The position numbers were made by a program, and so were the translations under genes. From positions 1 through 64,000 of IMG/VR virus record IMGVR_UViG_3300025280_000001: a stretch of DNA of 64,000 nucleotides; one strand, written 5' to 3'. Positions 5,940-63,928 of the stretch are shown piece after piece. The notes beneath the pieces are model-generated. The model saw nothing but the letters and a program-made list of their open reading frames with translations. It made no database searches and was not told the DNA's origin. Each line of letters starts with the position of its first letter. Position 1 is the stretch's first letter. This stretch comes from a virus.

Positions 5940-5965
5940 TGCTGAAAATTTTTAGAAAGTCAGCA
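5940..5965 (+). repeat. inverted repeat upstream of promoter
   Basis: TGCTGA (5940-5945) is matched by TCAGCA (5960-5965), ending nine bases before the -35 box at 5974. It could be an operator or the remains of a terminator; no T-run follows it. Confidence 0.35.
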
Positions 5966-5973
5966 TTATTTAC

Positions 5974-6001
5974 TTGACAAATTACAAATGTATGGTATAA
6001 T
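5974..6001 (+). promoter_or_regulatory. consensus sigma70 promoter, extended -10, second copy
   Basis: TTGACA (5974-5979), 16-base spacer, TGG then TATAAT (5996-6001). ACTTGACAA, TATGGTATAATAT and spacing match the promoter at 1959. It lies in the only intergenic gap of the replication cluster and should drive SSB and the replication genes from host RNA polymerase. Confidence 0.87.
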
Positions 6002-6042
6002 ATCCATATAAGATTTTCAAACAGTCAGATAAAGGAGACAAA

Positions 6043-6573
6043 ATGACAATGACAGCGAAAATGAAACAGTTTGTAACAGAAACTTTAGAGGTAGTATACG
6101 GACATCTTCATCGTCCAGATGATAAGTTCGGAGCTGATTCTGCTAATCACAATATAACTGTGATCGTAGATAAAGACTTTCAAGTTGTACTTGATAACCT
6201 AGAAAAAGAATCTGGAGCAACAAAGATTAATGGTATGCGTGTTGATGATGATGGTCGTACTTTACTAAAGGTCAAATCAAAGATCTTTGTTAAGAAGGGC
6301 GATCAAACATTCCCATGTCGTGATGCCAATTCAATTAAGACTGAGGCTACACCCTTTGGTGGAGACAAGGTTAGACTACGATTGAATCCTACAATTCTAG
6401 AGAGAGACAACAGTATGAGTATCTATCTTAATGGATGTCAAATTGTTGAGAAGAATGCTTTAGATACTGGTGGATTTGATACAGTAGAAGATGGTTTCGA
6501 TGGCAGTACTTGGACAGCACCCGCTGCTACACAAGAATTACCTGCTGAAACCGAAGACCCCCTACCATTCTAA
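6043..6573 (+). CDS. single-stranded DNA-binding protein (T7 gp2.5 / DUF2815 type)
   Basis: A 176-residue protein with an OB-fold-like beta-rich body and a disordered acidic tail ending in an aromatic residue (ETEDPLPF), the hallmark of phage SSBs that bind polymerase and helicase through that tail. The body has the DUF2815 look (HNITVIVDKDF, INGMRVDDDGR, RLRLNPT). It is first after the sigma70 promoter and has AAAGGAGA before its ATG. It protects single-stranded DNA during replication and recombination. The next gene starts at its stop (TAATG). Confidence 0.85.
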   Translation: MTMTAKMKQFVTETLEVVYGHLHRPDDKFGADSANHNITVIVDKDFQVVLDNLEKESGATKINGMRVDDDGRTLLKVKSKIFVKKGDQTFPCRDANSIKTEATPFGGDKVRLRLNPTILERDNSMSIYLNGCQIVEKNALDTGGFDTVEDGFDGSTWTAPAATQELPAETEDPLPF

Positions 6574-7101: not shown

Positions 7102-7483
7102 AAAAGTTTTAGCCAGTACTATGGCTGTATTATTAGGAGGATGTAGTGCTATACATAAAGTATTTGTTCCATCACCTAGCGCAATGGAACAAGCTATTCA
7201 GGTCATGGATACGCCTGTCAATAATTGTAGCCCTATGCTTGGTTGGCTTGGTGGTATCTGTACCCTTTCTGGTATGGCTCTGCTTGTGCTGTCTGGTGGT
7301 CGAATGGGATACCAGCCGTTGATCGGTGGAGTTTTATTCGTAATATTAAATTATGCCCTAGCTTTATATGCTAGTTGGTTCTTCCTTCCTATGGTGGTTG
7401 CAACAGGTGCAATCTCATTAGCATGGGCAGGTAAAATAGTTATGGGGATTTATAAGGAGAAAAAAAATGGTAGAAATATTTGA
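7088..7483 (+). CDS. putative lipoprotein / multi-pass membrane protein
   Basis: A 131-residue protein with a basic N-terminus, a hydrophobic stretch and a lipobox-like LLGGC at residues 16-20, suggesting a lipid-modified cysteine. About three hydrophobic segments follow (WLGGICTLSGMALLVLSGG, then IGGVLFVILNYALALYA, then FLPMVVATGAISLAWAG). I know no matching family. It lies in a run of tiny membrane genes among replication genes, where some T7-like phages keep lysis or exclusion functions; that role is inference. Confidence 0.5.
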   Translation: MEKFKKVLASTMAVLLGGCSAIHKVFVPSPSAMEQAIQVMDTPVNNCSPMLGWLGGICTLSGMALLVLSGGRMGYQPLIGGVLFVILNYALALYASWFFLPMVVATGAISLAWAGKIVMGIYKEKKNGRNI

Positions 7484-45600: not shown

Positions 45601-48600
45601 AAGGCGAGGGCACCATCCACCATGTTGAAGCACACTTATTAGATAAGGCTGATCCTCGTCATAAAGAATATGTTCCTCCGCCCCCACCACCGACAACAGG
45701 TGGACACCCATCAACACCGCCAAGTAAGATTAATGAACTAAGAGAGAAGGCTGGTTTTGAACCTGTAGAAGTAGAACTATCTGGTGATCCAGAAAGTAAT
45801 TCATTTGTTCCCTTAGATTTTGCTGAAAGTGTCACAGTCTATCAGACTCTTCAGGAATTAATAGCTAAGGCTGAAGAGGCTGGAGATACAAAACTAGCAA
45901 AAGAACTTAAAAGAACACTGTCTGCATTAAGATTCTTTGCTGAGAACCATCTAGATACTCTTCCTATTACTGAAGCAATTGTTGATATACAGACAAAAAC
46001 ATTAGCTATTACAAAGAGAATGAATGAGATAGATGAAGAGTTTATGAATAATGAAAAGTTTAAAGCAAACTATCAAATAGAAGCAGATGCTCAAGTTGTT
46101 GCAGTATTATCTACAAGAATAAAGAACAGTGCTGATAGGGGTAAGATTAAAGAAAATGATGTTGTTCTTGATACAGAATCACAGGAAGCATTATCTTCCT
46201 TAGAAGATAGCTATAAGATTAAGCCTAAGAAAGGTGTATCTCATTGGAAGAGATTAGCTAAAATTAGAACCATGCTTGAAAAGAAATCTGCTAACTTTGG
46301 GGCTAAATACTTAAAGGCTAAAGAAAAACACAACAAAGAGATTACAACCCATAGCGATGAGATAATGAGACTTAAGGAGAAACAGAGATCCGAAATTCAC
46401 AAAATAAATATGCGTGTTATTGAAGCTCATTTAGGAGAACATACAGGTCTAACTCTAGCTACAGGTAGAGAAATTGCAGAACAAGTAGCAACGCACCAAC
46501 TTAAGTTAGCTAGGAAAGAAGCAGATTGGAAATTCTTTTGGGAAGAACAATCAACAATGACCTTAAATGATTTTATTTTTCAATATCTTAATAACAATCA
46601 ATATGTAAGAACGAGAATACTCAAAAAACATGGTACTAAAGAAGAGGGTTATACAAAGAAACAGCTACAAGAATATTGGGATCAGGCTATAAAAAAAGAA
46701 AAAGAATTAATTGATCGTCTGCATGTAGGTAGAATGATGGCTACCCAAAGAGTTATTAATAACCTAGCTACTGAAATCCTAGAAGAGAAGGGTGTTACGA
46801 TAGATAACTGGAATCCTGAACATAGGTTTACTCTAGATACATTACCAGATCAAAGACTTGCAGCACTTGCTGCGGGTGATGGGGTCACATCTCATATAGA
46901 AACAAAACTAGAAGCAGTAACCTTATTAAGTCAGTTTGCTAGAAGAATTATATATATGCTCAACACTCCGAGATGGAGTGACGAAACAACACTGAAGTGG
47001 GATAAGGTTAAAAAGGCATTGCCACCGGGTATTAAAAATCTTCGGATAGAGATTGTATTTGCACATGCCCTAACTCCTGACTCTAAAAATAAAGCTAATA
47101 CAGAAATGCTTGAGGTGTTAGAATTAGAGTTTGATGTTGAACTACTAAAGGGAGCGTTAGCGGATCTAATAACATTACTAGATCCCGCAATTAAAGAGCA
47201 ATATAAATATACAGCTAGAATGATTAGAGAGGCTCAAAAAGATCCTACCGATACTCATAGTGAATACAGTTGGTATGCAGCACAGAGAATTGTTACAATG
47301 TTATGGGATGCCATGCTACCCGCTTATCGAGACGAGTTCTTAGCTAATGAAATCCATCCGGATCATATAGGTCGAGGATATAAACTTGTACACAGTAAGG
47401 GAGTTACTACTAAGTGGGGAACTGAGTCTGATTATATTATTGCGGTAGGAGAAGAAGCTAAGAATATGCTTTTAATCTTACCAGAGGGAATAAGAAAGCT
47501 TGCTCTTGAAAGGCTTGGTATTAAAGAAACAGCTATTATTGCTGATATAGATCCCAACACACTTTTAACAGCTATGGCTAGTTTTATGCATAAGAAAACT
47601 GCAGCGGATTTAGCAAAATATGGTAATGGTACAGAGGATTACAATTCAGCCTTTACTACTGGTCGGGGTATAATTGAAATTGTTCTAGATAGATCACCGG
47701 GTACTATGAGACGAGTAGTAGATAAGTCTGATCCTGAAGGTGTTGTTGATAACTTTACTGAACTTAATGAAACTAGTAAAGAATCCGCAAAACGATTTAA
47801 AAAACCAGAAAAAGAAAAAAGTAAAGTTCTATTACCTCCACATACAGGTGATATAAATATGTTTGGTCCTCTAGAAGAGTGGGGACTTATACGTACCCTT
47901 GAGGATGAAGTATTCCGTAATAGAATTAAATTCTCTGCACATGTAGAGATAACTGATTCTATCAGAAACCAATGGGCTGATCCGAACAGAGTGTCTAATG
48001 TTAAAGAAGATGATATGTTTAATGTTGGTCGAAGACTTCCGTTTAGACTTACACCTTATATTAATAATAGACTATATAAAGGAACAACACTGGATCGCCA
48101 AGAACTATTGGAAGCTTTGTTTACAGTACAGTTAGATATGCCAGCAGTAGTACAGTCATTTATTTATGATGCTGTTATTGGACACAGACAATTCTATGCT
48201 AGTGAAGCTAAAACTACTAGTGAAATTATTACTACTGGTTGGGATACAGTGATGCCGTCAACTAACTTGGCTTGGGTGAATATCCTACAACAGTTGAATC
48301 CAGAGCTTCTTCAAGCAGAGAATGTAGACTCTCCACTTGTACAACTTGTATTGGAAGAGGCATTAAGATGGGAAAACCAAACTGATCCTGATACTGGGAA
48401 GACAAGACCCTTCAATGAAATTATTAACCAATACAACTATGGAGATCAATCATGGCAAGGTGCTCACCTATTCTGGTTTCTCAATCGAAAAGGTGATGAG
48501 TTTATAGCTGAACTACAAAGGATTCATGATGAAGGAGAAATGGGTTGGAATGAAGATCTTGAGGATAGATATATTACAACAGCCGTGAAGTGGATACATG

Positions 48601-51600
48601 AATTATTATCTACTGATAAGGATAGTAGAATGGATATCTTTAGAGACTTATTCAAAAAGGTTGGTATTACTGAAGATACAGACTATGATACTATCCGTAC
48701 TATGCAAGAAGAGGATGGCAATCGAGTTAAGATACTAAGAGATGCTTTATTCAAGCCTGGTCCTTTGATGACTTTATATGGTGGCGGTAAAGAAGCACAG
48801 ATGGTTTATTATAAAGGCGATGGTCGAGTAGATTTAGTTAGATTAAATGAAGAATTAGACGTTGCTATAACTTTAAAAGATATAGAAAACTTACAAGACT
48901 TTATGTTTGGTGGTTTCATGTGGGAAGGTACAACGATATTGCATGATGCTATGGACTATAGTGTCGAACTAAAGAGAGCAGTATTTAAGTTATTAGCTGT
49001 CGAAGGAACTGGTGGTGCCCGTAGTCAGGCAGCAATAGAATCTGCTAGAGCGGGATTACAGAAAATTTCTGATGATGACGGTGGAGATTATGGTAGAATG
49101 CTGATGAGAGCTAGTGATGCCTTAGTTCTTTTACGAGCTAGAATAGCAGATATATCAGAGTTTACAGAAATTCCCGTAAAAATTATTGAAGAGAGATATG
49201 CTACAAGATTAAGGTGGGTTAGAGGATACCTGAAAAAGAAAGCTAAAGCAAATGAGTTGGTTGATGAATATGATATGGCAAGACTCAATGAGTTTTTATT
49301 AGGGGATCGTTTGGGTTGGAGAGATGTAGAAAACTTACGAGCACAGAACCTACAAAACTCTGTTGCTCATTATATGAACTTAGATCATATGCGTATTCAA
49401 GCACGGATGGAAGGCTATAATTTTGATCAAGACGATACTATGGGTCTAGAAGAGCTAGCCCTTTACTTTACACAGATGAGATCACATGATTCAAAACGGT
49501 GGTATCATACTGTATATGATGCTATGAATGTACAGCCAGTTAATGTTTCAGCGTCTAAGATTGCTACTGTATATGAAGGTATAATGAATACAGATAGATT
49601 TGCTGCTAGAGTAGAAGAGCTTGCTAATGATCCTGACGATCCGAAAAGTACATCTCCAGAATTCAATGGTATGTCTCAAGCCGAAGTATTTGCTTTATCG
49701 GAAATGCTACAAGAAGAAGGCGGAGCTCCCTTCGGAATGTGGGATATTAAAGTTAATAATTACCATGCAGCTAAAGAACGGTTTGGTGCTTTAGATGAAC
49801 GGGGTCAATTTATTAAAGACGCAGATCGTAAAAAATGGAAGGTTTGGGCAGAACGAGAAATTGAGGATGCACTCCTAAGAGATGAGATGTTATACGAAGC
49901 ATCATATGGTCCATTAGCTTTAACTGAATATGAGCAAGGTGGAGTAGTAACTACTAAGGGTGGAAGAGAGTTTGATATATTCTCTGAGATGGATCCCGAA
50001 AGAATGTATGGTACTATTGCACAAAGATGGCATACTGCTGATAAGGCAGCAGAGGTTGAACATAGACAGATAGTGAATCTTATTAATAAATATGAAGCAT
50101 TCAGATCTATGGGTACAGAGACTGAGGCAGCAGGTCGTCAGATTCTAACTAGAGTAAGCCAGTGGAGTGGTATCCCTATTGATCTTCTTCCTACCATTAA
50201 AGAGCTGGGTATTAGAATTGGTACTAATAGATATCCAGTAGAATCACCTTATACTAGAACCGTTAAACCTTTGGGTGACGAGACTCACGATGTAGATGAC
50301 TTCATTGGAATTCAAACTGCACACCCTGGTGGATATGCTGCAATGAGACCCGCTATTAAGAAGGTAGCATGGGATCAGGTTGGATCTTTAGCTCTCCGTA
50401 AATTCTATTATGATCGAAAGATTAATGATCTAGAGACTAGAATTAATCCATACTTAGATCCAGCAATAGACCCCTCAATACGTCCAGTTGAATCCCTAGA
50501 AAATATTTTACCAGAGCACAATAGAACAGACTTCCCTATTCTAAGTGATAAACAAAATATTCTTTATCCAGAATCTTTAAGGGGTTTCGAAGCAGAAAAC
50601 TTACTATCGGGTAGAGCCGCTACAGTGCAGTCTATACGATTTAAGCTAGAGGAAAAAATAGATATATGGGCAAGAAATCAAGGTTGGGATATTCAGTTTC
50701 TAAAAGAACATAAAGAGTTATATCTCTCTCTATACTATATGATGAAACTTGATGACATGTTTGGATATGTGGATTCAGGATATAGACCTCCAGAATATGC
50801 AGAAGCATGGAATATAATGAGACAACTAGAAACCGTTGGTCGAGCTACAAGAGCTAATAAGCCTGGTGAAATGTTTAAAGCTAAGTATGATATTATAGAA
50901 AAGATTAGAAAGATATATAGAATATCTCATGGTATGCTTACAAGAACTAGATCTATGATAGATTTACATGATAAGGGTGCTGTATTAGGTACTGTATATG
51001 TTCCTGGAAAAGGTAAGATGACTTATGAAGAAGCTTTAGTATCTGGTATACTAGGTCCTAATGCTTTAACTCCTGCTCTAGAACTAGGTTTACAAGCTGC
51101 TGATCTAATGGTACTTGATGCTGATAATAATCTTGGAGAATATATAGCCACAACCGAAACCAAGGAAGGTACTCAAGTTATCCAAGGTATAGATAGTAAT
51201 ATGTTAGTTACAAAGCTTCCAGAACAGTTTGGATTAGATACTATACTTATAAAGATGTTAGAAGATACTGGTAGATTAACTAAAGAACAAATAGCAGGAT
51301 ACGAAGCTGGCTCTTATAAATCTATTATAGATCCGACTGGTAAGAATGGAATAACTAGCTATGAGCTTCTGGGTTTTGTTCAAGAAGTATTTAGAAGAAA
51401 TAGAGAAGACAGATTGTCTAACTATGATTTAGTAATCTTTGAGGTACGTGAGGAATCAGAAGGTAGGTTTACTCCTCTTAATATTCAGGTAGCTTCTAGA
51501 AGAGATCATACTGGTGTACAGGCTATTGTTAAGAGAGATCCTCTCAATACAGGTATAACTTTAACACCCCGATCCTATATTGGTCCAACCAAACGATTTG

Positions 51601-54600
51601 CTATGACTCCAGAATCTATATTCCATGCTTTGAATACTTTGGGTAACTTCCATGCTATAGAGATGATGGAGTATACACTAAGAACGGGTATGAGATTAAA
51701 TGTACGAGAAAAGGTACAACCTGATGGTACTGTTGTGCTTACACCTAGAGAAGCTTTATCAGATCGTATGAGACAGGATATGGGTTTTAGTTTTAGACAA
51801 GACAGAAAAAATGAACAGCTTTTATATGAAGCCTTTAGATTAATGTTGGGTGAAGATACTCATATGGATTTAGTAGAAGAAACAAGAGAGATAGATGGCA
51901 GTAAAACTAAATTCATAAATGCTCGTACATATATAAATCATAATATAGATATCAAGTTCCATAAAGATGGACCGTCATTCTCTACTAGTGTTCATCGTGC
52001 TGCTCTTATATCTCCCTTACAGAGAGTTATGCAGAGGCTAAACTACTTTGGATCTAATAAATTAAATGGTGACTTAGATGCATTTGTTGAAGCTCGTGAA
52101 GAAGATCTACTAATGGTTATAGGTACAATGATTCGTAAGCCTGAGATTACAGCAGAAGAGATGTCAATAATTCTACCATTTATTATGGAAGAAAAGGTAA
52201 TAAAGAAAGATGGAGAGTCTACTCCTGTTCTCGAACACATAAGAGATTTGCAAAGTAGAGCTGAATACTTCCTACAAGAAATTTTAAATGAGCTACGATG
52301 GAGAGAACTTTCTAGTACTGTTAAACACCTACATGAAATCAATACCCCAAAGATTGTTGATAAGCGTACTGGTAGGATTATGAATTCATGGCAATCAAAA
52401 ACAATACCATTTGATTGGATTGCTAGATCTTTCTGGGAAAATGTTAGTGAAGAATCATTTAAGGTAGATTTAAATGAAACAGAATTTTATGAACAAGTAT
52501 ATAAACCACATGCAGAAAAGATATGGGATAGTGTTAAAGCAACATACTCCAAGACTCATCATAAAGATATATTAGATTTTCTTGAGCGACATAAAGAAGA
52601 GCTTATGGAATTAAGTTATAAAAATGCTTTAGAAACAATGTTTAATGAAAACCTAGAGGAAGAACCACGAGCAGAATCTGTCTTACTAAAAGAAGATATG
52701 GATGCTAGGTGGAGAAAAATACAAGAGATAGATCCTCAGAAAATTAAACAGCTTAGAACGAAAGCGGCATTACTCAAGAGATGGGAAGGTAGTACCACTA
52801 TTTATCCACACCTTGTACATGTATTAAGTAGTATTGATACGCTTGTTAAAGATAAAGTAATAACCGAACAGGTTGCAGATGCTACCCGCTCAATGTTGGC
52901 ATGGATGGCTGAAAAAAATCCCCAGATATTTGTTAACATGAAATTTGAATCAAAAGAAAATATCCCAGGAATATATGTAGCGTTTGCTCAAAAGGTAAAT
53001 CAAGCTGAATCTGGAGTTACCTTCGATGGTATATATAGAAACGATCCTGAAGCTGGGGTAAGATATGAACCAGATGAGGACATGAGAACAACAAAGAATT
53101 TGTTGTATCTAACTGGACTATCGAATGAACAAATAGATGCAATGCCTGAATTCCAAGAAGGATGGTTAGATGGTGTGGATGCTATGTCCTATGTTGTAGG
53201 ATTTGATATGGAAACAACTATTGCTGCTACTCCAGAGGGTAGAGATATTCTTATGGCATCTATAAAATCTCGTACAGATGGAGATGCAAAAGGTACCTAT
53301 GAAAAGAATCTATGGACAGCTCAACCTATACCAGGATATGCTAATATCCGAAACGAAATAGAAACTATTAAATCAAACCATACACGAATAACTCTGTCTG
53401 AAGATGGTACACATTATCACGCTGTTGGTAACCCTGATAAAAAATATGCCCGTGTTACACAGGCTATTAGGGGAGATGTCGATCCTAAAGAAATGAACCA
53501 GAAAGCTATGGATATCGGTACTAATATAGATGTAATAGTAAGAGACTTCTTTGCTGGAGAGCTAAAGGGGTATCTGAATTATCATACTGATGGTAACCCA
53601 CATATAAAAACCGAAGAAATATTTGATAGTTTTATCGAACAACTAGAAGAACTGAAGCAAAAATTTGACCGTAATGGTGATGAAGTTATAGCTAATAACA
53701 TAGTATTATATAGTGATGAACTTGAAATTGCTGGTACTGTCGATCTGTTAGTATACAATGAAGATAAACAAACTATTAGTATCTATGATATGAAAACTAA
53801 ACGAAGAGGTGCAAAGGCAGGAGCTGGGCGTAGTGGTTTGTTATATAATGTAGATACAAAATATGAAGCTGGAAGTTATAGAGATAAGTGGACGAATCAA
53901 TTAAATCTTTATTCCATATTATTAAACCACACCCACAATATAGATACAGAGACTCTTGGTATTATACCAATAGCTGTTGCTTATGATGGAAGAGTGAAGG
54001 CAAGAACTACAGATGAACTTACTCTATATGAAACAGAGTCTATCAAAGAACTTCCAGAAGTTACATTACTAGCTAGAGATGAAGGTGCTTCAAGAAATAC
54101 ACTAGCACAAGATGGTGGTAGAATAACTCAAGAGCAAGCTCAAGATATGTTGAACACTCTTGAGATGCATCAGAATCGTGGCGGTAAGGTAGTTACTCAT
54201 AACGGTAATGAGTTTGACTTATTAACACTTGGGCATATAGCAGATAATCCTAGACAAGCCGCTAGGATTGCATTAAGAGGTTATGATATAATGCAAATAC
54301 TTATGTATGCTGAACCAGAACCTGGCAGATCACTAGATTGGTTTGGATTAAATGATGCTGGGCTAAATACAATAGGTAGAGGTAAGATAGACGAATCCGG
54401 ATTAGCTCCACTATATTCACAGCAAATGCTAGGGCAAGAATTAGAAGACCTTACTGGAGAGGTATCATCTGAAGCAATAGCTAAAATCAAAGAGATGGAC
54501 CCAGCAATGGCTGGAGATAAATTACGCATTTATGTAGAAGACGATGCAAACTTAACCGCAGATCTTCTTGTTGGACTATGGGAAAAGAGTCAATCAGATA

Positions 54601-57600
54601 ATAAAGCTCTTGATATTACTAACGCTAAGGGAGCAACTAGGGTTACTATGCATAATGCACACCCATCTTGGAAGACAGCTTCTGAGATAGACTCTGTTCC
54701 AGGATCTGTAAGAAAGTTTAACAACAACGGTTTGATTACACCACGCTCTACACATATACCTGGAGATCCTTCACTAGATCCTGCATATCTTATTGGGTTG
54801 GATGCTGCAAAGCTTTCAACAATGGATACAGCTTCTGCTGTTGAGATTATTTTCCATGAGGTTATGGAGGTTGCTATCTTAAAGTATATGAGAGAAGATA
54901 CCGCAGCGTTTGATAATCTCGTAGAAATGTTAGAACGTAAAGAAAATATAAAACTATTGGAGAGAATGATATTAGCTCAATCTGGTGGTAAGAGCGGACC
55001 CTCAATTAAAGCAAGAATGGAATACTTTACAAGTTCGCCAACTGAACTTATTGCCGCCTTTGCTTCATACTATGTAGCCGCTAAAGTATTGGGAGATCCA
55101 GAAGGAGTTGTAGCTCCAATTATAAATGATCTTCATAAGTCTTCAGCTTGGAGTAAGCTAAAGGAATTTATGAACAAAACATTTAGATGGGTTGGAGATA
55201 TCTATAGAGATATGTCACATGTATTTGTTTCATTCATAGATGAGCCAGGTGGTCAGCGTGAGTTTGATGATCTTATGACCCTATTAAATACAGTGTTCGG
55301 TCTAGATCAAGAAGGTAATATGCTATTAGATGCTAATAATGATTTATCTAAACCACGTTATTCAAAAGACTGGAGATATGATACGCCTTATCAACTAGCC
55401 GAAGAACCAGCAGAAATATTAGAGGGTGGGGATAAAGAGTATCTAAAGAAATATAATAAGATACAAACACTCTCGGATGAGTTAGATGTACTGATGGCAA
55501 ACGGAAAGGGTAGTTCTAAAGAATATCGAAACAAGAGTCTATTATCCCGTAAGCTTCATGGAGAAATGGTTCAGTATGGATATGTTAATAATAATCCAAA
55601 AACCATGATAGGTACTGAAGGTGGTGAAGGTGGTCGTCATGTTCAAGGTCTTACTAGAGGAGAACAACTATCGTGGGAACAAATTATACGTAGAGATTGG
55701 TGGCTTGGTAGTGGTCCCGATGGATTAGCTATTCTGAATTCAGGAAACATATATCTCAAGGCAGCCTTTGCGCATATGACAAGTCAAAAAATGTCGGACT
55801 ATTTAGGAGGGCACCTATCACAGGGAGTGGGTGGAACCGCTAGATGGTTTGCTGATTTCTTTGATAGGAGTGGGGTTTCTAAATATGTTATGGATAATGC
55901 AAAGAAATTTATTCTTGCATCTTCTGGTGCAAATGTTACATACAATAGTCCATTTGTAATATCAGTTATACTAGCAAATATGATGGTTGATGGGGCGACT
56001 ATTACTAGGAGTTCAGTATTACCACACTCAAAGGGTATTGTTTCTGTTCAGGCAGCACATAGAAAAGCAACAGGATTTGAAAAGGCTGTTGGTGATACAT
56101 TCTCACGAGATGTAATTAAACTATTTGAAAAAAGCCCATACTATAAGAATGCACTTGAGAGTGGAGAAACTAAGGGAGATCTAGTACAGAATCTTCAAAC
56201 TGAAATTATTAAGATTCTAGTAGATCAAAAAGATAAAAGAGATTATAGCGGTATTGAAAAGTATGATGATGGTATTCAAAAAGGTATAAAGAATCTAGAT
56301 GCTACATTTAGAAGTTTTGTTAATCAGATATTTGGAATGTCCAAAGAGCAGGGTAGAGCTTATATGGAAAAAGATACTGAAATGGTTCCTTGGTTAGTTA
56401 AATCTACAAACACTGGAGAAACATTACATGCTGCTACCCAAAGAACTAGACCTGCACTTAAGAAATTATTTACGGATAAAATATCTTCAGCAAGTAAGGA
56501 ATATATTCATCCTGTGTTAGCGTATACGGCTGGATTATTACCTAAACCATCAAGATTAAATAAATCATTAGAGATGATGCAAATTATTCATCCCGCATGG
56601 TATAGGTTTATTGCAACGAAAGCTCTGTTAAATTATAGAGCTATGGCTAATGATCCTACAATTAGTTTAAATGCTTTCGTAGCTTTAACAATGAATGCTA
56701 CTGTTAGAAGTGCATGGAATAAAGTTACATCTGATGCTATGTCTGCTAAGGGTGATAGACATCTGATGTGGAATGATCTCGATGGTTTTGCTGTTAAGGA
56801 TCCTAAAGGAAAACCTTATGATATGAATGAGGTTAAAGCTAAGATACGAGAGAGATATGATATGTTACTTGATGGTGAAGCTCTTGGTGATGATTTTGGT
56901 TTAAACAATGTTATCGACGAATTGTTTGATCTCAATAATCATCTAGATCCCCATGATAAAGTTAGATCATTTTATGTTGCTTCTAAGACTAGAAGAAATA
57001 AAGACTTCTCTAGTGTAATGGATTTTATTCTTAATACATTCCTAGAGCGAATACACCACCAAGCTTACTTTGTTTATGATAGTATATTTACTCCTAAAGT
57101 ATCTGAAGCACTAGCTATACCTGAAATTAGAAGTTATTTAGAAACTAACCCCGCTATACTAGCTAGAGCTGTATCTCGTTCACAGGGTCATAGAGCTCAT
57201 GAGATAGATATGTTTAAGGAGATTACTAACACAAATCTAGATTTCAGTGAACTACTAAGTCTATTTGGGGAGGTTGCTAGTACTAAAGGTAGTGTCTTTA
57301 GGATGACAGATGGTAAAGGTAAAGACCTTACCGAAAAAGAACAGGCACAATTATCTCATGCTTTAAATGTAACCTTTAAACGTAAGTATGAAGTACTCAG
57401 AGGCGTTGCTGCTAGATATGATACAAGCGAAGATACCTTCGCAAACAGCTTAGGAGAGGGTTCTAACTGGATTGTTAAGTCTGTATACGGTACTAACCTA
57501 GCTATGGCTACTTCTGTAGTGGAAGGAAGCATGGCTGGCTTATTAAGTACTATAGGATATAACGATGTAAAGGGGCTTATATTCCCGTTTTTAGCCTATT

Positions 57601-59378
57601 TAAAGCCCCTTATGAGGCAGGATAATGAGGTTGCTAGGGGTATGATATACGGTCTTAGGCTTCTAAAGGGCGATACAACACCAGGCTTGGTTGATCTAGA
57701 TACTAGTATACACCCCGCTGATACCGATCTTTACTTCGCCAAACAGCGTAAGAATTGGTGGGCAAGACGACCCGAAGCAATTACACACCACGCTTCACGA
57801 GTTAATGAACAACTTAAGTCAATGATTGATTTGCAAATGAGAAAGTTCATGTATGATAAACTTAATAAGGGGCAGTGGAGAGATTTAATTAATCTTATTG
57901 CCTCTGGATCTAGAGATGCTAAGACAGGTAAGCTACTAGAACACCTTGAGTTTGAAAAAGATCCCGTTGCTTGGAGAAAACGAGAGGAAGCAAGGGTAAT
58001 GGCAGCTAATAGGAAGCTTCCTGCCGACCAACAACAGGCAGCAAGAGAAAAACCAGGCTATGACCTAGAAGCATTGCTAGATGATAGCAAAGCTAGCTGG
58101 AGGTTATGGAAAAAGCTGGCAACGGAGAGTGGATGGGGAGCCAAACAGTGGAGATCGGCTATGATTGCCGCAAAACACGGTCTTATGACCCACGAAGCTC
58201 TAGATAATTTTATTATTATGGAATCTGAAGCCCGTACTATAGCAAAAGCCGAAGGTTACGGGAAGGAGGGGTTCTTTCACCTCTATAAAATGAGACAGTG
58301 GACAGAAATGTTTGCTAAAGAAGAAGATGCAGCTGGTATGCTGGATGTATATGGTAATACACGTAATGCTTTACAAGAATTTATAGAAATAGTTATGGTA
58401 GCCCCTAATATTCTAGACTTGAATGTAGTCCCAAGTGCTTTGTGGGCTATACTTCACCAATATAGAACATATCCAATCCTATTTACTGCCCAAAGAATTG
58501 TTAGAGACTCATCTAACTATGATCCCTTTACCTGGTCTTTAAGAGTTGTATCTAATTTGCTCCTAGATATGCTATATACTCTATTAACAATGGTAGCTGG
58601 TGGTTATAGAATACAAGATATGCAAGATGACTGGGAAAAAGAACCTGCGTCAATGATAGCATTATTAGCAACACGGCTACCCATGTTTGGTTTCTATGGT
58701 TCAGCTGCATTTGAGCTAATGAATCTTGTTGCATCAGGTAGAAAGGGTGCTGTAATGGCTCCTGTATCCCTTGCAGGGCTTGCAGGATTCCTTGGAAACT
58801 TAGTTAATGTTGGTAAATCAGGCATAGAAGCAGCTATTCCAGGTGGAAAATTATGGGATACCGATGGTGATACACAAGACCTTATTAACTTATTAAGAGT
58901 CATTCCTTATTTAGGTGAGTCTGTAGTTAGGATGGGACTACATCAAGCACTTCGTAGTAAACAATCCAGAGGTGCTATCACAAAATATGGACAGAATAGA
59001 GAGTTTTTCAACTTTGGTCTGACACGAAAGCAAATGATGGATCAACCTAAGTATTACTTAGCAGAGCTTATAGGTGAATTAGCTCCACACCTTATCCCCG
59101 AAGATATACAAGACTTGGATGTAGAAGATTGGGTAGCCATTAAATCAGGAGTAGAGTCCCTGCCCCTTCAGCAGCCCGAAGAAGCAACTGGTGTTGATAC
59201 TCCAGTCGGAACGACTCCAGATCCTGACCCCTTCACAGCGGCAACAGAACGCTCTCTACGGGCTCCGAGTACCCTCGGACTGGGCAAGCTAGACAAATTC
59301 ATCAAAGCTCCTATGCCGACTCCTAAGGGGATTACGGGAGGAAAGCGAACTTGGGACATACAAGATAAAATCGACTAG
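42681..59378 (+). CDS. giant virion/ejection protein, 5565 aa, with nuclease domains
   Basis: One uninterrupted frame of 16.7 kb, about a quarter of the window. Order: hydrophobic segment near 291-312 (LVGLLLTAATAGIGGVAL); long helical parts with a proline linker near 995; candidate 3'-5' exonuclease motif I at 3507-3513; PD-(D/E)XK nuclease ~3600-3750; exonuclease motifs II and III at 3840 and 3951; degenerate zincin HEVME at 4059; membrane-like segments near 5290-5380 (LLDMLYTLLTMVAGG); Pro/Thr-rich tail. Its position last in the internal-protein cluster suggests injection with the DNA, as for T7 gp16 or N4 vRNAP, but no RNA polymerase or transglycosylase motif was found. Confidence 0.75.
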   Translation: MVRPRQSPADYLPPLPGPSPDDMFHMGSLDRELDAGYYSKIPEAPLEAWGEDTLYSSKTIHESQKPYQVESINLATGDYQIGPLSLLESNRLGMALVHTGGMWGSNAQNTNLVASMMFAGRRELAGTFMALDEDMEKNLKNFISPLAYSNWLKGVNVHLPELDKPSTYIPVRTQHFEPMFIGEAWEQFNPNDLFLEEPHPDYTPDKAWALMWEKNPGFMNRISKLGANEEYFADAKNEHEWMHNANMLIELNYITKSKMWSDDTSWWGKNVSGQLYTFVVSGILNEPDMVGEMLVGLLLTAATAGIGGVALTAKIATYMRKGVKIMDELAELRTFVSKVLRMSRVTNFLPSAIPHTFMTRGGKVALKSRWFNPFANKGRNIFMANAAEGALTGTLAEIGNQRRKINWELQDEYDWEMVAWQGGLESIITPFINPAFVLGMKGLQRGSMRTMQFSSQLMTELTGTDIDLGAKLPDVVKNIVKVWGQPESATDRITLDILGNMAWKNLENMLGSLDADGRKVTGQRLGQILAMLLEDGKLDSLQGLETTLELMIKEATVRKDDGTTYIDHKKMDLPMAVAKLAAIAAKKRGLTADEIGTHEATAFFFIHGERIASERNKKNIKRKDGSEPVGDNKWTAPDIITEALGGTEIDIAVFFDEAMRAEVDEELTLGGLDPKFASKSQVAAAWEKAMVKRGATFAKRASAIIDEQEKLIKEVSELIEAARQALDIREGDASYYMNELVASDPELKRRLVELENFTNDLQALFNQISEIRALRESDLHVKDQTQANSMLDIALTSDRVGGMMARLKLIAKALNIDVKGISKISDMVAILKQRVSQDERFDLEAFKPLAEHLSLELSENLAVITEEQSNLEKVLIDNLFRTIANYHNVYKNSSPHVIDQTIDGVKIDRQFQAIVNSIMRVNDSNYEVLNIDNMTNTGEWNVTESGTKTDTTEPIFLTDKILLKDKKSGDVLSKGEGTIHHVEAHLLDKADPRHKEYVPPPPPPTTGGHPSTPPSKINELREKAGFEPVEVELSGDPESNSFVPLDFAESVTVYQTLQELIAKAEEAGDTKLAKELKRTLSALRFFAENHLDTLPITEAIVDIQTKTLAITKRMNEIDEEFMNNEKFKANYQIEADAQVVAVLSTRIKNSADRGKIKENDVVLDTESQEALSSLEDSYKIKPKKGVSHWKRLAKIRTMLEKKSANFGAKYLKAKEKHNKEITTHSDEIMRLKEKQRSEIHKINMRVIEAHLGEHTGLTLATGREIAEQVATHQLKLARKEADWKFFWEEQSTMTLNDFIFQYLNNNQYVRTRILKKHGTKEEGYTKKQLQEYWDQAIKKEKELIDRLHVGRMMATQRVINNLATEILEEKGVTIDNWNPEHRFTLDTLPDQRLAALAAGDGVTSHIETKLEAVTLLSQFARRIIYMLNTPRWSDETTLKWDKVKKALPPGIKNLRIEIVFAHALTPDSKNKANTEMLEVLELEFDVELLKGALADLITLLDPAIKEQYKYTARMIREAQKDPTDTHSEYSWYAAQRIVTMLWDAMLPAYRDEFLANEIHPDHIGRGYKLVHSKGVTTKWGTESDYIIAVGEEAKNMLLILPEGIRKLALERLGIKETAIIADIDPNTLLTAMASFMHKKTAADLAKYGNGTEDYNSAFTTGRGIIEIVLDRSPGTMRRVVDKSDPEGVVDNFTELNETSKESAKRFKKPEKEKSKVLLPPHTGDINMFGPLEEWGLIRTLEDEVFRNRIKFSAHVEITDSIRNQWADPNRVSNVKEDDMFNVGRRLPFRLTPYINNRLYKGTTLDRQELLEALFTVQLDMPAVVQSFIYDAVIGHRQFYASEAKTTSEIITTGWDTVMPSTNLAWVNILQQLNPELLQAENVDSPLVQLVLEEALRWENQTDPDTGKTRPFNEIINQYNYGDQSWQGAHLFWFLNRKGDEFIAELQRIHDEGEMGWNEDLEDRYITTAVKWIHELLSTDKDSRMDIFRDLFKKVGITEDTDYDTIRTMQEEDGNRVKILRDALFKPGPLMTLYGGGKEAQMVYYKGDGRVDLVRLNEELDVAITLKDIENLQDFMFGGFMWEGTTILHDAMDYSVELKRAVFKLLAVEGTGGARSQAAIESARAGLQKISDDDGGDYGRMLMRASDALVLLRARIADISEFTEIPVKIIEERYATRLRWVRGYLKKKAKANELVDEYDMARLNEFLLGDRLGWRDVENLRAQNLQNSVAHYMNLDHMRIQARMEGYNFDQDDTMGLEELALYFTQMRSHDSKRWYHTVYDAMNVQPVNVSASKIATVYEGIMNTDRFAARVEELANDPDDPKSTSPEFNGMSQAEVFALSEMLQEEGGAPFGMWDIKVNNYHAAKERFGALDERGQFIKDADRKKWKVWAEREIEDALLRDEMLYEASYGPLALTEYEQGGVVTTKGGREFDIFSEMDPERMYGTIAQRWHTADKAAEVEHRQIVNLINKYEAFRSMGTETEAAGRQILTRVSQWSGIPIDLLPTIKELGIRIGTNRYPVESPYTRTVKPLGDETHDVDDFIGIQTAHPGGYAAMRPAIKKVAWDQVGSLALRKFYYDRKINDLETRINPYLDPAIDPSIRPVESLENILPEHNRTDFPILSDKQNILYPESLRGFEAENLLSGRAATVQSIRFKLEEKIDIWARNQGWDIQFLKEHKELYLSLYYMMKLDDMFGYVDSGYRPPEYAEAWNIMRQLETVGRATRANKPGEMFKAKYDIIEKIRKIYRISHGMLTRTRSMIDLHDKGAVLGTVYVPGKGKMTYEEALVSGILGPNALTPALELGLQAADLMVLDADNNLGEYIATTETKEGTQVIQGIDSNMLVTKLPEQFGLDTILIKMLEDTGRLTKEQIAGYEAGSYKSIIDPTGKNGITSYELLGFVQEVFRRNREDRLSNYDLVIFEVREESEGRFTPLNIQVASRRDHTGVQAIVKRDPLNTGITLTPRSYIGPTKRFAMTPESIFHALNTLGNFHAIEMMEYTLRTGMRLNVREKVQPDGTVVLTPREALSDRMRQDMGFSFRQDRKNEQLLYEAFRLMLGEDTHMDLVEETREIDGSKTKFINARTYINHNIDIKFHKDGPSFSTSVHRAALISPLQRVMQRLNYFGSNKLNGDLDAFVEAREEDLLMVIGTMIRKPEITAEEMSIILPFIMEEKVIKKDGESTPVLEHIRDLQSRAEYFLQEILNELRWRELSSTVKHLHEINTPKIVDKRTGRIMNSWQSKTIPFDWIARSFWENVSEESFKVDLNETEFYEQVYKPHAEKIWDSVKATYSKTHHKDILDFLERHKEELMELSYKNALETMFNENLEEEPRAESVLLKEDMDARWRKIQEIDPQKIKQLRTKAALLKRWEGSTTIYPHLVHVLSSIDTLVKDKVITEQVADATRSMLAWMAEKNPQIFVNMKFESKENIPGIYVAFAQKVNQAESGVTFDGIYRNDPEAGVRYEPDEDMRTTKNLLYLTGLSNEQIDAMPEFQEGWLDGVDAMSYVVGFDMETTIAATPEGRDILMASIKSRTDGDAKGTYEKNLWTAQPIPGYANIRNEIETIKSNHTRITLSEDGTHYHAVGNPDKKYARVTQAIRGDVDPKEMNQKAMDIGTNIDVIVRDFFAGELKGYLNYHTDGNPHIKTEEIFDSFIEQLEELKQKFDRNGDEVIANNIVLYSDELEIAGTVDLLVYNEDKQTISIYDMKTKRRGAKAGAGRSGLLYNVDTKYEAGSYRDKWTNQLNLYSILLNHTHNIDTETLGIIPIAVAYDGRVKARTTDELTLYETESIKELPEVTLLARDEGASRNTLAQDGGRITQEQAQDMLNTLEMHQNRGGKVVTHNGNEFDLLTLGHIADNPRQAARIALRGYDIMQILMYAEPEPGRSLDWFGLNDAGLNTIGRGKIDESGLAPLYSQQMLGQELEDLTGEVSSEAIAKIKEMDPAMAGDKLRIYVEDDANLTADLLVGLWEKSQSDNKALDITNAKGATRVTMHNAHPSWKTASEIDSVPGSVRKFNNNGLITPRSTHIPGDPSLDPAYLIGLDAAKLSTMDTASAVEIIFHEVMEVAILKYMREDTAAFDNLVEMLERKENIKLLERMILAQSGGKSGPSIKARMEYFTSSPTELIAAFASYYVAAKVLGDPEGVVAPIINDLHKSSAWSKLKEFMNKTFRWVGDIYRDMSHVFVSFIDEPGGQREFDDLMTLLNTVFGLDQEGNMLLDANNDLSKPRYSKDWRYDTPYQLAEEPAEILEGGDKEYLKKYNKIQTLSDELDVLMANGKGSSKEYRNKSLLSRKLHGEMVQYGYVNNNPKTMIGTEGGEGGRHVQGLTRGEQLSWEQIIRRDWWLGSGPDGLAILNSGNIYLKAAFAHMTSQKMSDYLGGHLSQGVGGTARWFADFFDRSGVSKYVMDNAKKFILASSGANVTYNSPFVISVILANMMVDGATITRSSVLPHSKGIVSVQAAHRKATGFEKAVGDTFSRDVIKLFEKSPYYKNALESGETKGDLVQNLQTEIIKILVDQKDKRDYSGIEKYDDGIQKGIKNLDATFRSFVNQIFGMSKEQGRAYMEKDTEMVPWLVKSTNTGETLHAATQRTRPALKKLFTDKISSASKEYIHPVLAYTAGLLPKPSRLNKSLEMMQIIHPAWYRFIATKALLNYRAMANDPTISLNAFVALTMNATVRSAWNKVTSDAMSAKGDRHLMWNDLDGFAVKDPKGKPYDMNEVKAKIRERYDMLLDGEALGDDFGLNNVIDELFDLNNHLDPHDKVRSFYVASKTRRNKDFSSVMDFILNTFLERIHHQAYFVYDSIFTPKVSEALAIPEIRSYLETNPAILARAVSRSQGHRAHEIDMFKEITNTNLDFSELLSLFGEVASTKGSVFRMTDGKGKDLTEKEQAQLSHALNVTFKRKYEVLRGVAARYDTSEDTFANSLGEGSNWIVKSVYGTNLAMATSVVEGSMAGLLSTIGYNDVKGLIFPFLAYLKPLMRQDNEVARGMIYGLRLLKGDTTPGLVDLDTSIHPADTDLYFAKQRKNWWARRPEAITHHASRVNEQLKSMIDLQMRKFMYDKLNKGQWRDLINLIASGSRDAKTGKLLEHLEFEKDPVAWRKREEARVMAANRKLPADQQQAAREKPGYDLEALLDDSKASWRLWKKLATESGWGAKQWRSAMIAAKHGLMTHEALDNFIIMESEARTIAKAEGYGKEGFFHLYKMRQWTEMFAKEEDAAGMLDVYGNTRNALQEFIEIVMVAPNILDLNVVPSALWAILHQYRTYPILFTAQRIVRDSSNYDPFTWSLRVVSNLLLDMLYTLLTMVAGGYRIQDMQDDWEKEPASMIALLATRLPMFGFYGSAAFELMNLVASGRKGAVMAPVSLAGLAGFLGNLVNVGKSGIEAAIPGGKLWDTDGDTQDLINLLRVIPYLGESVVRMGLHQALRSKQSRGAITKYGQNREFFNFGLTRKQMMDQPKYYLAELIGELAPHLIPEDIQDLDVEDWVAIKSGVESLPLQQPEEATGVDTPVGTTPDPDPFTAATERSLRAPSTLGLGKLDKFIKAPMPTPKGITGGKRTWDIQDKID
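53190..54600 (+). other. nested nuclease domains in the giant protein
   Basis: GFDMETT (D3509, E3511) looks like motif I of a DEDD exonuclease. About 330 residues later VTHNGNEFDLL (D3846) is motif II, and YVEDDANLT (Y3951, D3955) is motif III of the DEDDy type. In between lies a separate nuclease: GTVDLLVY (D3688), YDMKTK (D3703, K3705) and QLNLY (Q3740, Y3744), the PD-(D/E)XK core with the QxxxY motif of RecB/Cas4-like enzymes. The nested arrangement is inference. Confidence 0.65.
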
Positions 59379-59403
59379 GGGGTCGAGAATTTACGTGACC
59401 CCT
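59378..59403 (+). repeat. inverted repeat after giant gene
   Basis: GGGGTC (59379-59384) pairs with GACCCC (59397-59402) just past the giant gene's stop, extendable by a G-T pair. No T-run follows, so it is not a typical terminator. Confidence 0.5.
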
Positions 59404-59460
59404 TAATAGGGTTTGGACTGGGGCTGACCCCCCCGTACCCCCTATTGGAACATTCCACTT

Positions 59461-59722: not shown

Positions 59723-59991
59723 TCAACTCCGGTGCCCTCCCGCAAGGGAGGGATGCCGAGCCCTTTCGGTGGTAGAGCTGCCATGACGAGCAGCTGAAGA
59801 GAAAGCAACCACTGCGCCATGGATGGTGGGTCGTGGTTGGTGGGCTACGGTTTGAGAAGCCACTAACATTGCGGGGGATGCCGACGTTTGTGCGGCATTC
59901 AAGTAGTGGCTTAGGCTAGTAGTCGAGCTCGTAACTGACCTGGTGAGCACTAGCCAAGACGATAAGGACACATCTCAAAGGAGACTCTACT
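59723..59991 (+). ncRNA. highly structured leader before RNAP 2
   Basis: A 269-base gap packed with stems: CCCTCCC-GCAA-GGGAGGG (59735-59752, a GNRA loop), AGCTGC/GCAGCT (59776-59795), CAACCAC/GTGGTTG (59806-59839), AAGCCACTA/TAGTGGCTT (59857-59912) enclosing ATGCCG/CGGCAT (59878-59898), and GGCTAGT/ACTAGCC (59914-59955) enclosing GCTC/GAGC. AAAGGAGA then precedes the polymerase ATG. It could be a stable RNA or a translation-control leader. Confidence 0.6.
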
Positions 59992-61956
59992 ATGAAAAGT
60001 CCTTCTTCCCCCGCAAGTGGAGACCCCACTTGCAGCCTACTTCTTCCCGAAGTAGCAAGTATTTTAGATACTTACGGCAGCGATAAGTTACTCGCTGCCG
60101 CAAAATTGCTGCGAAAGGGCGGTATGGGTAATCACGATGTGGTTAACCAGCTCGTCAATGATGTAGCCATTCATGCTGGTCTGACTGGTGAGAGTGGTGG
60201 TACAGCCGCAGCAGTTGCAGTATTTACCTACTGCAAGGTCATGGCTCGTAAGCATGGTGTTCGTCGCATGACGGACAAAGCACCATTGTTTGAATCTGAA
60301 GTGCCAGGTACACGCCGTTTCGTTGGCTCACGCCGACCTGACTGGTCGCTGGACTCAGCATCTGAAGGTTACGTAGGCGAGAAAGTAGCTGCTGTTCTGA
60401 AATGGATATCAGCTAAGGGTTTCAAGGTTCATCAAGCTTTTGCTGCTGAACTTCGACTACTCCCCCGTGGAGTTCTTTGTACAAAGCCTAACAAAGACTA
60501 CCGTGACTTAGATACAGGCGAACCTCTAAGCCAAGCACAGTCAATAGTGACAGCACTAGATTATGCTGCAGAAGCAGGAGATCGTCTCGTATATTGGATC
60601 GTCTTTATGGATTTGGATGGACGTATTTATTATGTCGCTCCAATTTCACTGCAAGCTGCAGACGGTGTAAAAGGATTAGTATGCCTACCAGAAGCGAAAG
60701 CTCTAACCGACCAAGGTTGGGCTGATCTGTGGTGGAACCACTCAAAGGAGTGGGGAATCCGTGACATGCAAGACTGTCGAGAAATCGTCAGCTCTGGTAT
60801 CGTTGCGTACCACGCAACTGGTGGCAAGCTAGACGCATACGCCCATGCGATGCACACTGTACAAGCAGACGATACCAATATGTACCAACTACCAGTTGGT
60901 CTCGATGAGAACTTCTCATCTGCGCTGATAAATGCGGGACTTTCTGGTTGTGAAACCTCAGCTCAGAACTCTGGTCTCTTAAGGTTACCTGACGGTAGCT
61001 ATACAGAAGGTTGGAGTAGTACGAGTAAGGAAATGAGTACTGTGGAACTTGTTGATGAGATTCCTGTCGATAAGCGTAAGCCATTCATTAAACCGGGTGG
61101 CACCACACTATCTTATAACTCTGGTACAGAAACCGCAGCTCTAGCTTTCATGTTTGGTAAAAAATGTGAATATGCTTTCAAGGATACCTTGCATATGAAA
61201 TGGCAGGTCTTTAGGAAAGCAGCTAAAAGTAAGCCGCTACGTCTCGTAAAAGCCTTGCTCAACAAGAAGAATACGGATGTTAACGCTCACAACTGCATGA
61301 TGGTAGCCTTAGAATTCTCAGGTGCCATAGAAGAAGCATTAGATAAAGCTTTGCCAGCAACGCTAGGTAATGCCTCGTTCTTGAATGATGTGTCAGCATC
61401 GTGCCAAGAGCAAGGACTGCCGCGTGAATGGACAACTCCAATGGACTTGACTATTAAGGTCCTTCCCTATCGCCCAACTAAAGAGACCATATCTGAGGGT
61501 AAGCGAAAAGGTAAATTGGTTACGGTAAGGCTCGCCGCTGGTATTAATTGGACAGAAACCCGTGGTGGTCGCACAAGGTCGACCATGTTACACGTAGCAT
61601 TTATATTAAACGATGGCGACTTGTCACTAATGCCTCAATTGATTCAGAGTATTGAAGCTGCTATACTTCAAAAAGCCATGTATGATTTGATTCAGATGGC
61701 TATAGATATATGGCTGTCTTCTGCCCATGACTGTATGTATGCTCATCCAAATGACATTCGTGTTATAGACCGTGTGTTGAGTAAAGCATTTATGTGGGTT
61801 ATCAAGCGATTCAACTTGGAAAAAGTCTTCGCCCATGTTGGCGTTGGCGCTGTCTATCCTGATGGCACTCCTGTCGTTAGGTCTAATCGTGATGCTATAC
61901 TTAATCGAATCTCTAGTGAAATGAATTTGTGTGGTCTCCCCGCACCAATTAAGTAA
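59992..61956 (+). CDS. second, divergent single-subunit RNA polymerase (RNAP 2)
   Basis: 654 residues, much shorter than RNAP 1 and T7. Despite low similarity it keeps the T7-family catalytic set: FMDLDGRIYYVAPIS (R211, cf. T7 MDWRGRVYAV), VGLDENFSSAL (D305, metal site A), FIKPGGTTLSYNSG (K367 and Y375, eight apart as in T7 K631/Y639), and AHDCMYAHPNDI (D580, metal site C, cf. HDSFGT). About 230 residues are missing overall, mostly before R211, where T7 has its promoter-reading N-terminal domain. It may use a simple promoter, a primer, or an RNA template. Ribosome binding site AAAGGAGA. Confidence 0.75.
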   Translation: MKSPSSPASGDPTCSLLLPEVASILDTYGSDKLLAAAKLLRKGGMGNHDVVNQLVNDVAIHAGLTGESGGTAAAVAVFTYCKVMARKHGVRRMTDKAPLFESEVPGTRRFVGSRRPDWSLDSASEGYVGEKVAAVLKWISAKGFKVHQAFAAELRLLPRGVLCTKPNKDYRDLDTGEPLSQAQSIVTALDYAAEAGDRLVYWIVFMDLDGRIYYVAPISLQAADGVKGLVCLPEAKALTDQGWADLWWNHSKEWGIRDMQDCREIVSSGIVAYHATGGKLDAYAHAMHTVQADDTNMYQLPVGLDENFSSALINAGLSGCETSAQNSGLLRLPDGSYTEGWSSTSKEMSTVELVDEIPVDKRKPFIKPGGTTLSYNSGTETAALAFMFGKKCEYAFKDTLHMKWQVFRKAAKSKPLRLVKALLNKKNTDVNAHNCMMVALEFSGAIEEALDKALPATLGNASFLNDVSASCQEQGLPREWTTPMDLTIKVLPYRPTKETISEGKRKGKLVTVRLAAGINWTETRGGRTRSTMLHVAFILNDGDLSLMPQLIQSIEAAILQKAMYDLIQMAIDIWLSSAHDCMYAHPNDIRVIDRVLSKAFMWVIKRFNLEKVFAHVGVGAVYPDGTPVVRSNRDAILNRISSEMNLCGLPAPIK

Positions 61957-62052: not shown

Positions 62053-62331
62053 ATGGCAGTAAACCCTTACATCGGTACCTTTACTGAACTGTGCTTCAGT
62101 AATGGTATAATCTCAATACGGCTTCGTGTCATGTTCAATGATAATGGAGAGGTGTTGTTCTCAGAGGTGGTTTGTATGGAGTCTTCGAAAGACTGCACTA
62201 AAGCCCTGCTTGCTAAGTGGCATGCTTCACATCCTGGTGTGAACATATCCTTTGTAGAGTGGGTTAATTTTAGTGACCAACAACCACCTCCTCCTCCAAC
62301 TACCATGGATTCGCCCATGTTTGGAGGATAA
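62053..62331 (+). CDS. hypothetical protein, 92 aa
   Basis: ATG 62053 follows AAGGAGG. The product is beta-rich at first (GIISIRLRVMFNDNGEVLFSEVV), then helical (DCTKALLAKWHASHPG), and ends in a proline run (QQPPPPPTTMDSPMFGG) that is probably disordered and may bind a partner. A good terminator follows at 62353. No family recognised. Confidence 0.6.
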   Translation: MAVNPYIGTFTELCFSNGIISIRLRVMFNDNGEVLFSEVVCMESSKDCTKALLAKWHASHPGVNISFVEWVNFSDQQPPPPPTTMDSPMFGG

Positions 62332-62352: not shown

Positions 62353-62392
62353 AGGGGGCACAGGATCTAGGTCTTGTGCCCCTCTTTTTTTT
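62353..62392 (+). terminator. intrinsic terminator
   Basis: GGGGCACA / TGTGCCCC stem (62355-62362 with 62375-62382), extended by further pairing toward the loop, then CTC and about eight T residues. It ends the RNAP 2 operon. Confidence 0.88.
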
Positions 62393-62415
62393 ATAAGCGA
62401 CGGTTTATGATGCGT

Positions 62416-62745: not shown

Positions 62746-62746
62746 A

Positions 62747-62786
62747 GCAGGGGGTGTCTGTAAGGGCACCCCTGCTTTTTTCTTTT
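62747..62786 (+). terminator. intrinsic terminator
   Basis: GCAGGGG(G)TG / CACCCCTGC stem with a 10-base loop, then six T, C, four T. It directly follows the small basic gene. Confidence 0.87.
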
Positions 62787-62862
62787 CTGCTAACACTGCA
62801 CGACTCTCGCAAGAGAGTATGCTATAGCTCACGCTCTCAAGAGGAGTACAGTGTTAGCAGAA
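62785..62862 (+). ncRNA. three-way-junction RNA candidate
   Basis: A perfect 14-bp outer stem (62785-62798 with 62849-62862), extendable by G-T pairs, encloses two hairpins: ACTCTC-GCAA-GAGAGT (a GNRA tetraloop) and CTC-TCAA-GAG. This makes a compact three-way junction. Its outer left arm begins where the preceding T-run ends, so it could also be a processed 3' end. Confidence 0.6.
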
Positions 62863-63438
62863 GGGAAGAAAGATATGGACAATCGACACTGTCCAAGAAA
62901 AGTGTTGGATGCTGACTTGTGAGGGCGGAACATCCCTAGATCCACAAGGTTCATATCCTAGGTATGAGCAACAACAGCAGTCACAGATTCAAACCACTGT
63001 TCCTTCTTGGGTAGCAGCAGAGCTACCAAGAAGACAACAAGAATATAGGTCTGGAAAGGACCCAGGTTCCTACCTCGGTAGGGAGAAGACTGTTGGCAAC
63101 GACAGTCACTAATCCGAATTAACCTTTCCTGAGGCGCACCTAGTATAAGACAGGTGTGACAGGTGAGACAGATGGGCACTTCCTGCGGGATGCGGTCTGT
63201 CCCTGTCCTCATGCACACATGCGTGTGTGTGTGAGGATAGACACTTTTGATGGACGTTATGATAGTCCGTTAGCTTTACACCAGCTAAAGGTGTAGTTCA
63301 AGAGCACAAGATGCTAACTCTTGGAAGGCAGAAGTATTACGATCCAATGGATGTGACATGGAGGAAACGCCCAGATATGGGAACACACTCCGTCGTTGAA
63401 ATAATACACGGTGGTCCCCTCACATCCAACTAATAATC

Positions 63439-63525
63439 GGGGAGTAGCAGTAAGGGTCTCCGTTCGAGTAACCAAGATATTCGGAAGGACTTTGCATCCG
63501 TACGCTTGGATATCTGCTACTTCCC
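63439..63525 (+). ncRNA. 12-bp stem element, copy B
   Basis: GGGGAGTAGCAG (63439-63450) pairs with CTGCTACTTCCC (63514-63525), 11 Watson-Crick pairs and one G-T, around 63 bases. Compared with copy A (1849-1924), one T-A pair has become C-G and one G-C has become G-T while pairing is kept. Interiors are not obviously alike. Confidence 0.62.
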
Positions 63526-63638
63526 TTTAACTAATGCTCGACGGAGCAGTTCGTGGCTGAATAATCTCTTCAGTAAGGAGATAAGGCACACAGTAGACCG
63601 TGGTGGTCTGACCAATGCACATAATGTGTGAGGTCATC

Positions 63639-63649
63639 CTCGTAACTGA
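63639..63649 (+). repeat. 11-bp repeat shared with RNAP 2 leader
   Basis: CTCGTAACTGA here is also at 59928-59938 in the structured leader before RNAP 2. In both places it lies in or beside a hairpin. Short enough to be chance. Confidence 0.4.
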
Positions 63650-63928
63650 GGATAAGGTGATAGATGGTTGTAACAAATAATATTGCTCCTCTGTCTTGTA
63701 GGTAATAAAAGAATCCTACCGAACACAATATACTTTCTGCTACCTGATCAGTAGTGGGACTGGGATAATGCCCCAGTGCAGATACGTCCAAACTGCGACA
63801 ACAAAGCGGACGCAATATACAGAGTTTTTGCTGTGCTGTGACCTCTCTACAAAAGGTGAGATGCTCCGGCTTAGTCCACCATTGTTTAATAGACCATAAA
63901 CGGACTACAAACTAACAGGAGGTATCTT

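Follow-up and report, generated by a model that had tools for sequence, protein, structure and literature searches.

Why would a T7-like phage that already encodes a canonical single-subunit RNA polymerase (ssRNAP) carry a second and strongly divergent one? The question is raised by a 64,000-nucleotide stretch of viral DNA (here called the window), positions 1 to 64,000 of IMG/VR record IMGVR_UViG_3300025280_000001. The record as a whole comprises 68,523 bases, and because its two ends have 127 bases in common, we regard the assembly as circular and probably complete. The phage is uncultured and probably of marine origin, and comparison with bacterial genomes for host inference returned no match. 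Its canonical polymerase, 801 aa in length, lies at 2402-4807 (Pfam RNA_pol, E=7e-78; phrog_414, E=6e-153), and the second candidate, an ORF of 654 aa, at 59992-61956; both genes, and all other sites to which we assign a strand, are on the plus strand. The 654-aa ORF starts with ATG, is preceded by an AAGGAG ribosome-binding site at 59978-59983 and is followed by a 92-aa ORF with no assigned function (62053-62331). A preliminary description of this DNA, made from its letters alone, had reported the pair as one normal and one divergent polymerase, and both ORFs are present as it gave them.

Family membership, fold and active site

The 654-aa protein is a T7-family single-subunit RNA polymerase, as had been proposed from its motifs. 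Among PHROG profiles it matches phrog_414 (RNA polymerase) at E=9e-12, and against a profile built from canonical phage RNAPs alone, to which no second RNAP contributed, it scores 54.9 bits, while the best of 1000 shuffles of its own sequence reaches 3.7; a chance match to the motifs is thereby ruled out. The Pfam RNA_pol model stays under its cut-off (E=0.05), and the strong divergence of the protein is therefore visible. A profile of the second-RNAP family as a whole, compared with PDB sequences, finds T7 RNAP at 3e-48, mitochondrial RNAPs at 2e-45 and N4 RNAP2 at 1e-14.

Structure prediction, which the preliminary description had suggested, yielded the right-hand polymerase fold, and the outcome which that description had named as refuting, a fold of another kind, did not arise. 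The AlphaFold2 model, computed with 21 homologues, has a pTM of 0.75 and a core pLDDT of about 85-95, and is uncertain at residues 1-120 and about 490-540, the latter being the expected place of the specificity loop. Its best solved match in Foldseek is T7 RNAP (E=5.8e-16, probability 1.00), mitochondrial RNAPs are also recovered, and the viral structure matches include the short RNAP of phiEcoM-GJ1 (BFVD, E=8e-17), a protein of similar length (648 aa) and fold that is nonetheless only 14% identical.

The five active-site residues singled out earlier occur in the proper contexts: R211 in DLDGR (60622-60624), the motif A aspartate D305 in VGLD (60904-60906), K367 and Y375 of motif B in K-x7-Y (61090-61116), and D580 of motif C, which forms the HD pair with H579 (61726-61731). 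In the family profile and in the structure they align with the T7 residues which we take to be R425, D537, K631, Y639 and D812, H579 being matched to H811. Gaps in a mixed alignment shift motif B of the 654-aa protein, and the family alignment holds it in register. Across 24 second RNAPs, no positions are better conserved than the catalytic ones: D305 and D580 are found in 24/24, as is R211, for which the alignment of the most divergent members may be forced, K367 and Y375 are each found in 23/24, and H579 in 22/24. The motif C histidine is lost in two distant members (G017 and G023), the former of which also aligns a serine at the motif B lysine, and some lineages may on this sequence evidence be degenerating. 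Five close pairs of second RNAPs give dN/dS values of 0.16-0.20, from which we conclude that these proteins are under purifying selection; the window's copy is without a close homologue that would give a value of its own.

Relative to T7-like RNAPs (PHROG 414, PF00940), then, the protein shares the palm and fingers fold, the DxxGR arginine, the motif A aspartate, the lysine and tyrosine eight apart and the HD pair, but it is only 12-21% identical, stands as a second copy in its genome, and lacks the glycine after the motif A aspartate, the glycine after the motif B tyrosine, and H784. The C-terminal aromatic foot FAFA, usual in the family but not defining for it, is absent, and the protein ends in ...LCGLPAPIK. 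Its N-terminal part had been described as mostly missing; about 210 residues precede the DxxGR arginine, as opposed to 424 in T7, such that the complete promoter-reading domain (again usual and not defining) is absent and about half of its length remains. A protein so reduced could conceivably have given up catalysis to become a decoy, an inhibitor or a partner of the canonical RNAP, and its very fast divergence, the loss of the N-terminal domain and the foot, and the degenerate motifs of G017 and G023 would all suit such a derivative. The catalytic residues outlast every other position in 24 homologues, however, which a decoy would not need, and dN/dS is low, as noted above; we consider a non-catalytic role quite unlikely.

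A phage clade with second polymerases

A peptide search with the 654-aa sequence alone returned no relatives, and annotated phages gave weak and partial matches only. Relatives were instead reached among IMG/VR contigs by way of the terminase, and then by way of an alignment of the canonical RNAP. They form a clade of phages with genomes of 57-70 kb, a giant ORF of 3,500-5,600 aa, the gene order of the window, and canonical RNAPs about 50-73% identical to that of the window. Most members have an ORF of 590-713 aa after the giant ORF and before the canonical RNAP, and 24 full-length and five partial second RNAPs were collected in this manner. That the most divergent homologues had been admitted by circular reasoning was ruled out with staged profiles, in which 11 clearly T7-like copies recover them. 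The second RNAP is thus a conserved, syntenic gene of the clade and not a singleton. A copy search of the clade records detected no second RNAP in four of them (G011, G046, G051 and G053), which suggests that the gene is dispensable in some phages; G046 may lack sequence at its contig ends, and G011 is more distantly related. As separate observations, the RNA polymerase of the Pelagibacter phages HTVC025P and HTVC041P (L007 and L008) is annotated as two separate ORFs, and six relatives (L112, L116, L119, L124, L234 and L235) have tRNA genes in the interval from the giant ORF to the canonical RNAP, or nearby; the window has none.

The two polymerases of these phages have diverged to very different extents, the median pairwise identity being 24% for the second RNAPs and 55% for the canonical RNAPs of the same phages. 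Single pairs disagree in both directions: the canonical RNAPs of G023 and G024 are 90% identical and their second RNAPs 24%, whereas for G005 and G047 the corresponding figures are 78% and 90%. On account of these discrepancies, rapid divergence and exchange between phages both seem to occur in the second RNAPs. In a phylogenetic tree the canonical RNAPs group together in a single clade (100/100), and the second RNAPs belong neither to this clade nor to the T7-like outgroups but fall into two groups, with long branches that constitute a risk. The tree took in 12 of the less divergent second RNAPs, the window's own copy being too divergent to be placed. Recent duplication of the phage's own canonical RNAP was considered and ruled out, given that the fully supported canonical clade excludes all 12. 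By this phylogeny, and in agreement with the preliminary description, the second RNAPs are a lineage apart from the canonical RNAP, with the window's copy represented by its relatives.

The giant gene upstream and the structured RNA around the locus

Directly upstream of the second RNAP lies a giant ORF of 5565 aa (42681-59378), which has a probable core of the type of the N4 virion RNAP (vRNAP, gp50) and a region resembling PD-(D/E)XK nucleases, and which probably encodes a virion-borne protein. Its vRNAP-like motifs, from motif A (D1922) to motif B (R2020, K2025, Y2033), lie at 48444-48779; these four residues are invariant in 12 relatives, with the lysine and the tyrosine again eight apart. 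A profile of the giant ORF matches N4 vRNAPs over motifs A and B at E=0.003 (10.6% HH probability), and in the relative G005 Pfam RNA_pol matches inside the giant ORF at 1e-4. Because of the invariant residues, the N4-type profile match and the Pfam match in G005, there may be a third, virion-borne ssRNAP inside the giant ORF, which would bring the number of ssRNAPs in these phages to three; the AlphaFold2 model of this core is of low quality (pLDDT 49.6). The giant ORF also matches the phrog_298 exonuclease (7e-10), and the nuclease-like region, which follows the vRNAP-like motifs, matches giant proteins of crAss-like phages as well.

This neighbourhood invites the thought that the second RNAP is itself packaged in the virion and ejected with the giant protein, in the manner of N4 vRNAP, so as to be the first polymerase to act on the incoming DNA: its gene comes directly after the giant ORF, at the boundary of late and early genome regions, and that ORF has vRNAP-like motifs. 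The likeness to N4 vRNAP resides in the giant ORF, however, and the 654-aa protein is of the T7 type. The two genes are set apart by a conserved element and some 600 bases with structured RNA, and a sigma70-like promoter ahead of the canonical RNAP gene (1950-1994; direct repeat D3, TTGACA-N17-TATAAT), with a near copy at 5965-6009, indicates early transcription by the host RNAP, which probably begins infection from such promoters. Packaging of the second RNAP is, on balance, unlikely. The conserved element, TCGACTAGGGG-GTC..GAATTT followed by CCCCCCGTACCCCC, spans the stop codon of the giant ORF (59370-59442). About 10 further clade members have it too, with no more than one mismatch in its C-rich box, and none of the shuffles does. 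It could be a genome end, a packaging site, a terminator or a promoter.

The preliminary description had also seen a module of structured RNA around the gene, and this stands, with additions from the relatives. A strong intrinsic terminator follows the second RNAP and the 92-aa ORF (62354-62392; L002 4354-4383 plus a T run), and a second one lies at 62750-62782. Directly after the first terminator, AAGCGACGGTTTATG at 62395-62409 is a promoter candidate; the sequence shared exactly, and in the same place, with the relative G016 is AAGCGACGGYTTATG, of which no exact copy was found elsewhere. A de novo search of the window for promoter motifs returned ribosome-binding sites only, and none specific to either polymerase. 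By folding energy, a largely non-coding region of 1.2 kb (62746-63928) is strongly folded; the segment 62740-63540 folds at -313.9 kcal/mol, versus -235.1 +/- 7.9 kcal/mol for the comparison (z=-9.9). A long, near-perfect hairpin, CTGCTAACACTG...CAGTGTTAGCAG, lies in this non-coding region at 62778-62870. A manA RNA (RF01745) is found at 63535-63729 (78.6 bits against a cut-off of 55.2), and manA is also found in L220, L226, L228 and L230, at 1.3-1.8 kb downstream of the second RNAP. In three relatives a type II hammerhead ribozyme lies after the giant ORF and before the second RNAP, and in several a pistol ribozyme is found downstream of the second RNAP; in L228, a hammerhead II (3148-3218), a pistol (6127-6193) and manA (7168-7362) bracket the polymerase gene. 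One or other of the two ribozymes is also present in L217, L213, L218, L223, L226, L229, L116 and L234.

With ribozymes on both sides of the gene in L228, manA downstream of it in five phages and very strong folding in the window, it might be thought that the second RNAP copies RNA, or produces structured RNA, in the service of this module. The window is without a detectable hammerhead or pistol, even at E<=10, however. L234 (G051) keeps its pistol and L235 (G053) the boundary element, both in phages with no second RNAP detected, and the literature on hammerheads and manA in phages (PMC6155905, PMC2864571) makes no mention of a polymerase of this kind. For these reasons the polymerase and the RNA module may at most be functionally linked, and L234 and L235 speak against the earlier, tentative proposal of a polymerase dedicated to the module. 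We regard an enzyme tied to the module in this way as highly improbable, and the broader construction, in which the second RNAP, the flanking ribozymes, manA and the folded RNA would be one functional module of three-ssRNAP phages, with the polymerase making or copying ribozyme-processed RNAs, as very unlikely.

Proposed role and significance

On the sequence comparisons and the modelled structure, we consider it likely that the second RNAP is a catalytically active, DNA-dependent ssRNAP that belongs to a separate accessory lineage kept by a clade of large T7-like phages. The preliminary description had likewise proposed an active polymerase of a separate lineage; fold, active site, purifying selection and lineage agree with this, and activity itself is a prediction. 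Single-subunit RNAPs can also prime replication, as in T7 and in mitochondria, and a polymerase with its promoter-reading domain missing might accordingly be a replication primase, or a polymerase for primer RNA, and not an enzyme of gene expression. Given that the phage already encodes a primase-helicase (phrog_239, 5e-154) in addition to the canonical RNAP, we assign this role very little probability.

The closest parallel to the favoured reading, that of an active accessory transcriptase, is found in N4, an earlier example of a phage that has several ssRNAPs. Since its N-terminal domain is about half gone, the second RNAP resembles N4 RNAPII (gp15-gp16), with which it has in common a minimal size (673 versus 654 aa), the truncated domain and the position of a secondary polymerase in a phage with more than one. 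The likeness is one of architecture; the N4 enzyme, whose recruiter is the ssDNA-binding gp2, consists of two chains where there is one here, and belongs to a different phage family. N4 RNAPII is a minimal enzyme that acts on opened DNA and needs recruiter and helper proteins (PMC4496689). By analogy, the second RNAP would make RNA on a DNA template and would transcribe some of the phage's genes or RNAs within a temporal programme. The canonical RNAP would also take part in this programme, as would the host RNAP, acting from the sigma70-like promoters at 1950 and 5965. The surfaces by which the second RNAP contacts promoters would change rapidly through divergence and exchange between phages, the catalytic core being kept.

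With the second RNAPs the T7 RNAP family gains a deeply divergent branch, in which nearly everything but the active site has been altered and which provides a natural data set for asking what is required of a minimal RNA polymerase. An uncultured clade with up to three ssRNAPs and ribozyme-rich intergenic regions opens polymerase swapping and the co-evolution of polymerases with their promoters to study, and may prove a source of orthogonal polymerases with which to synthesise RNA.
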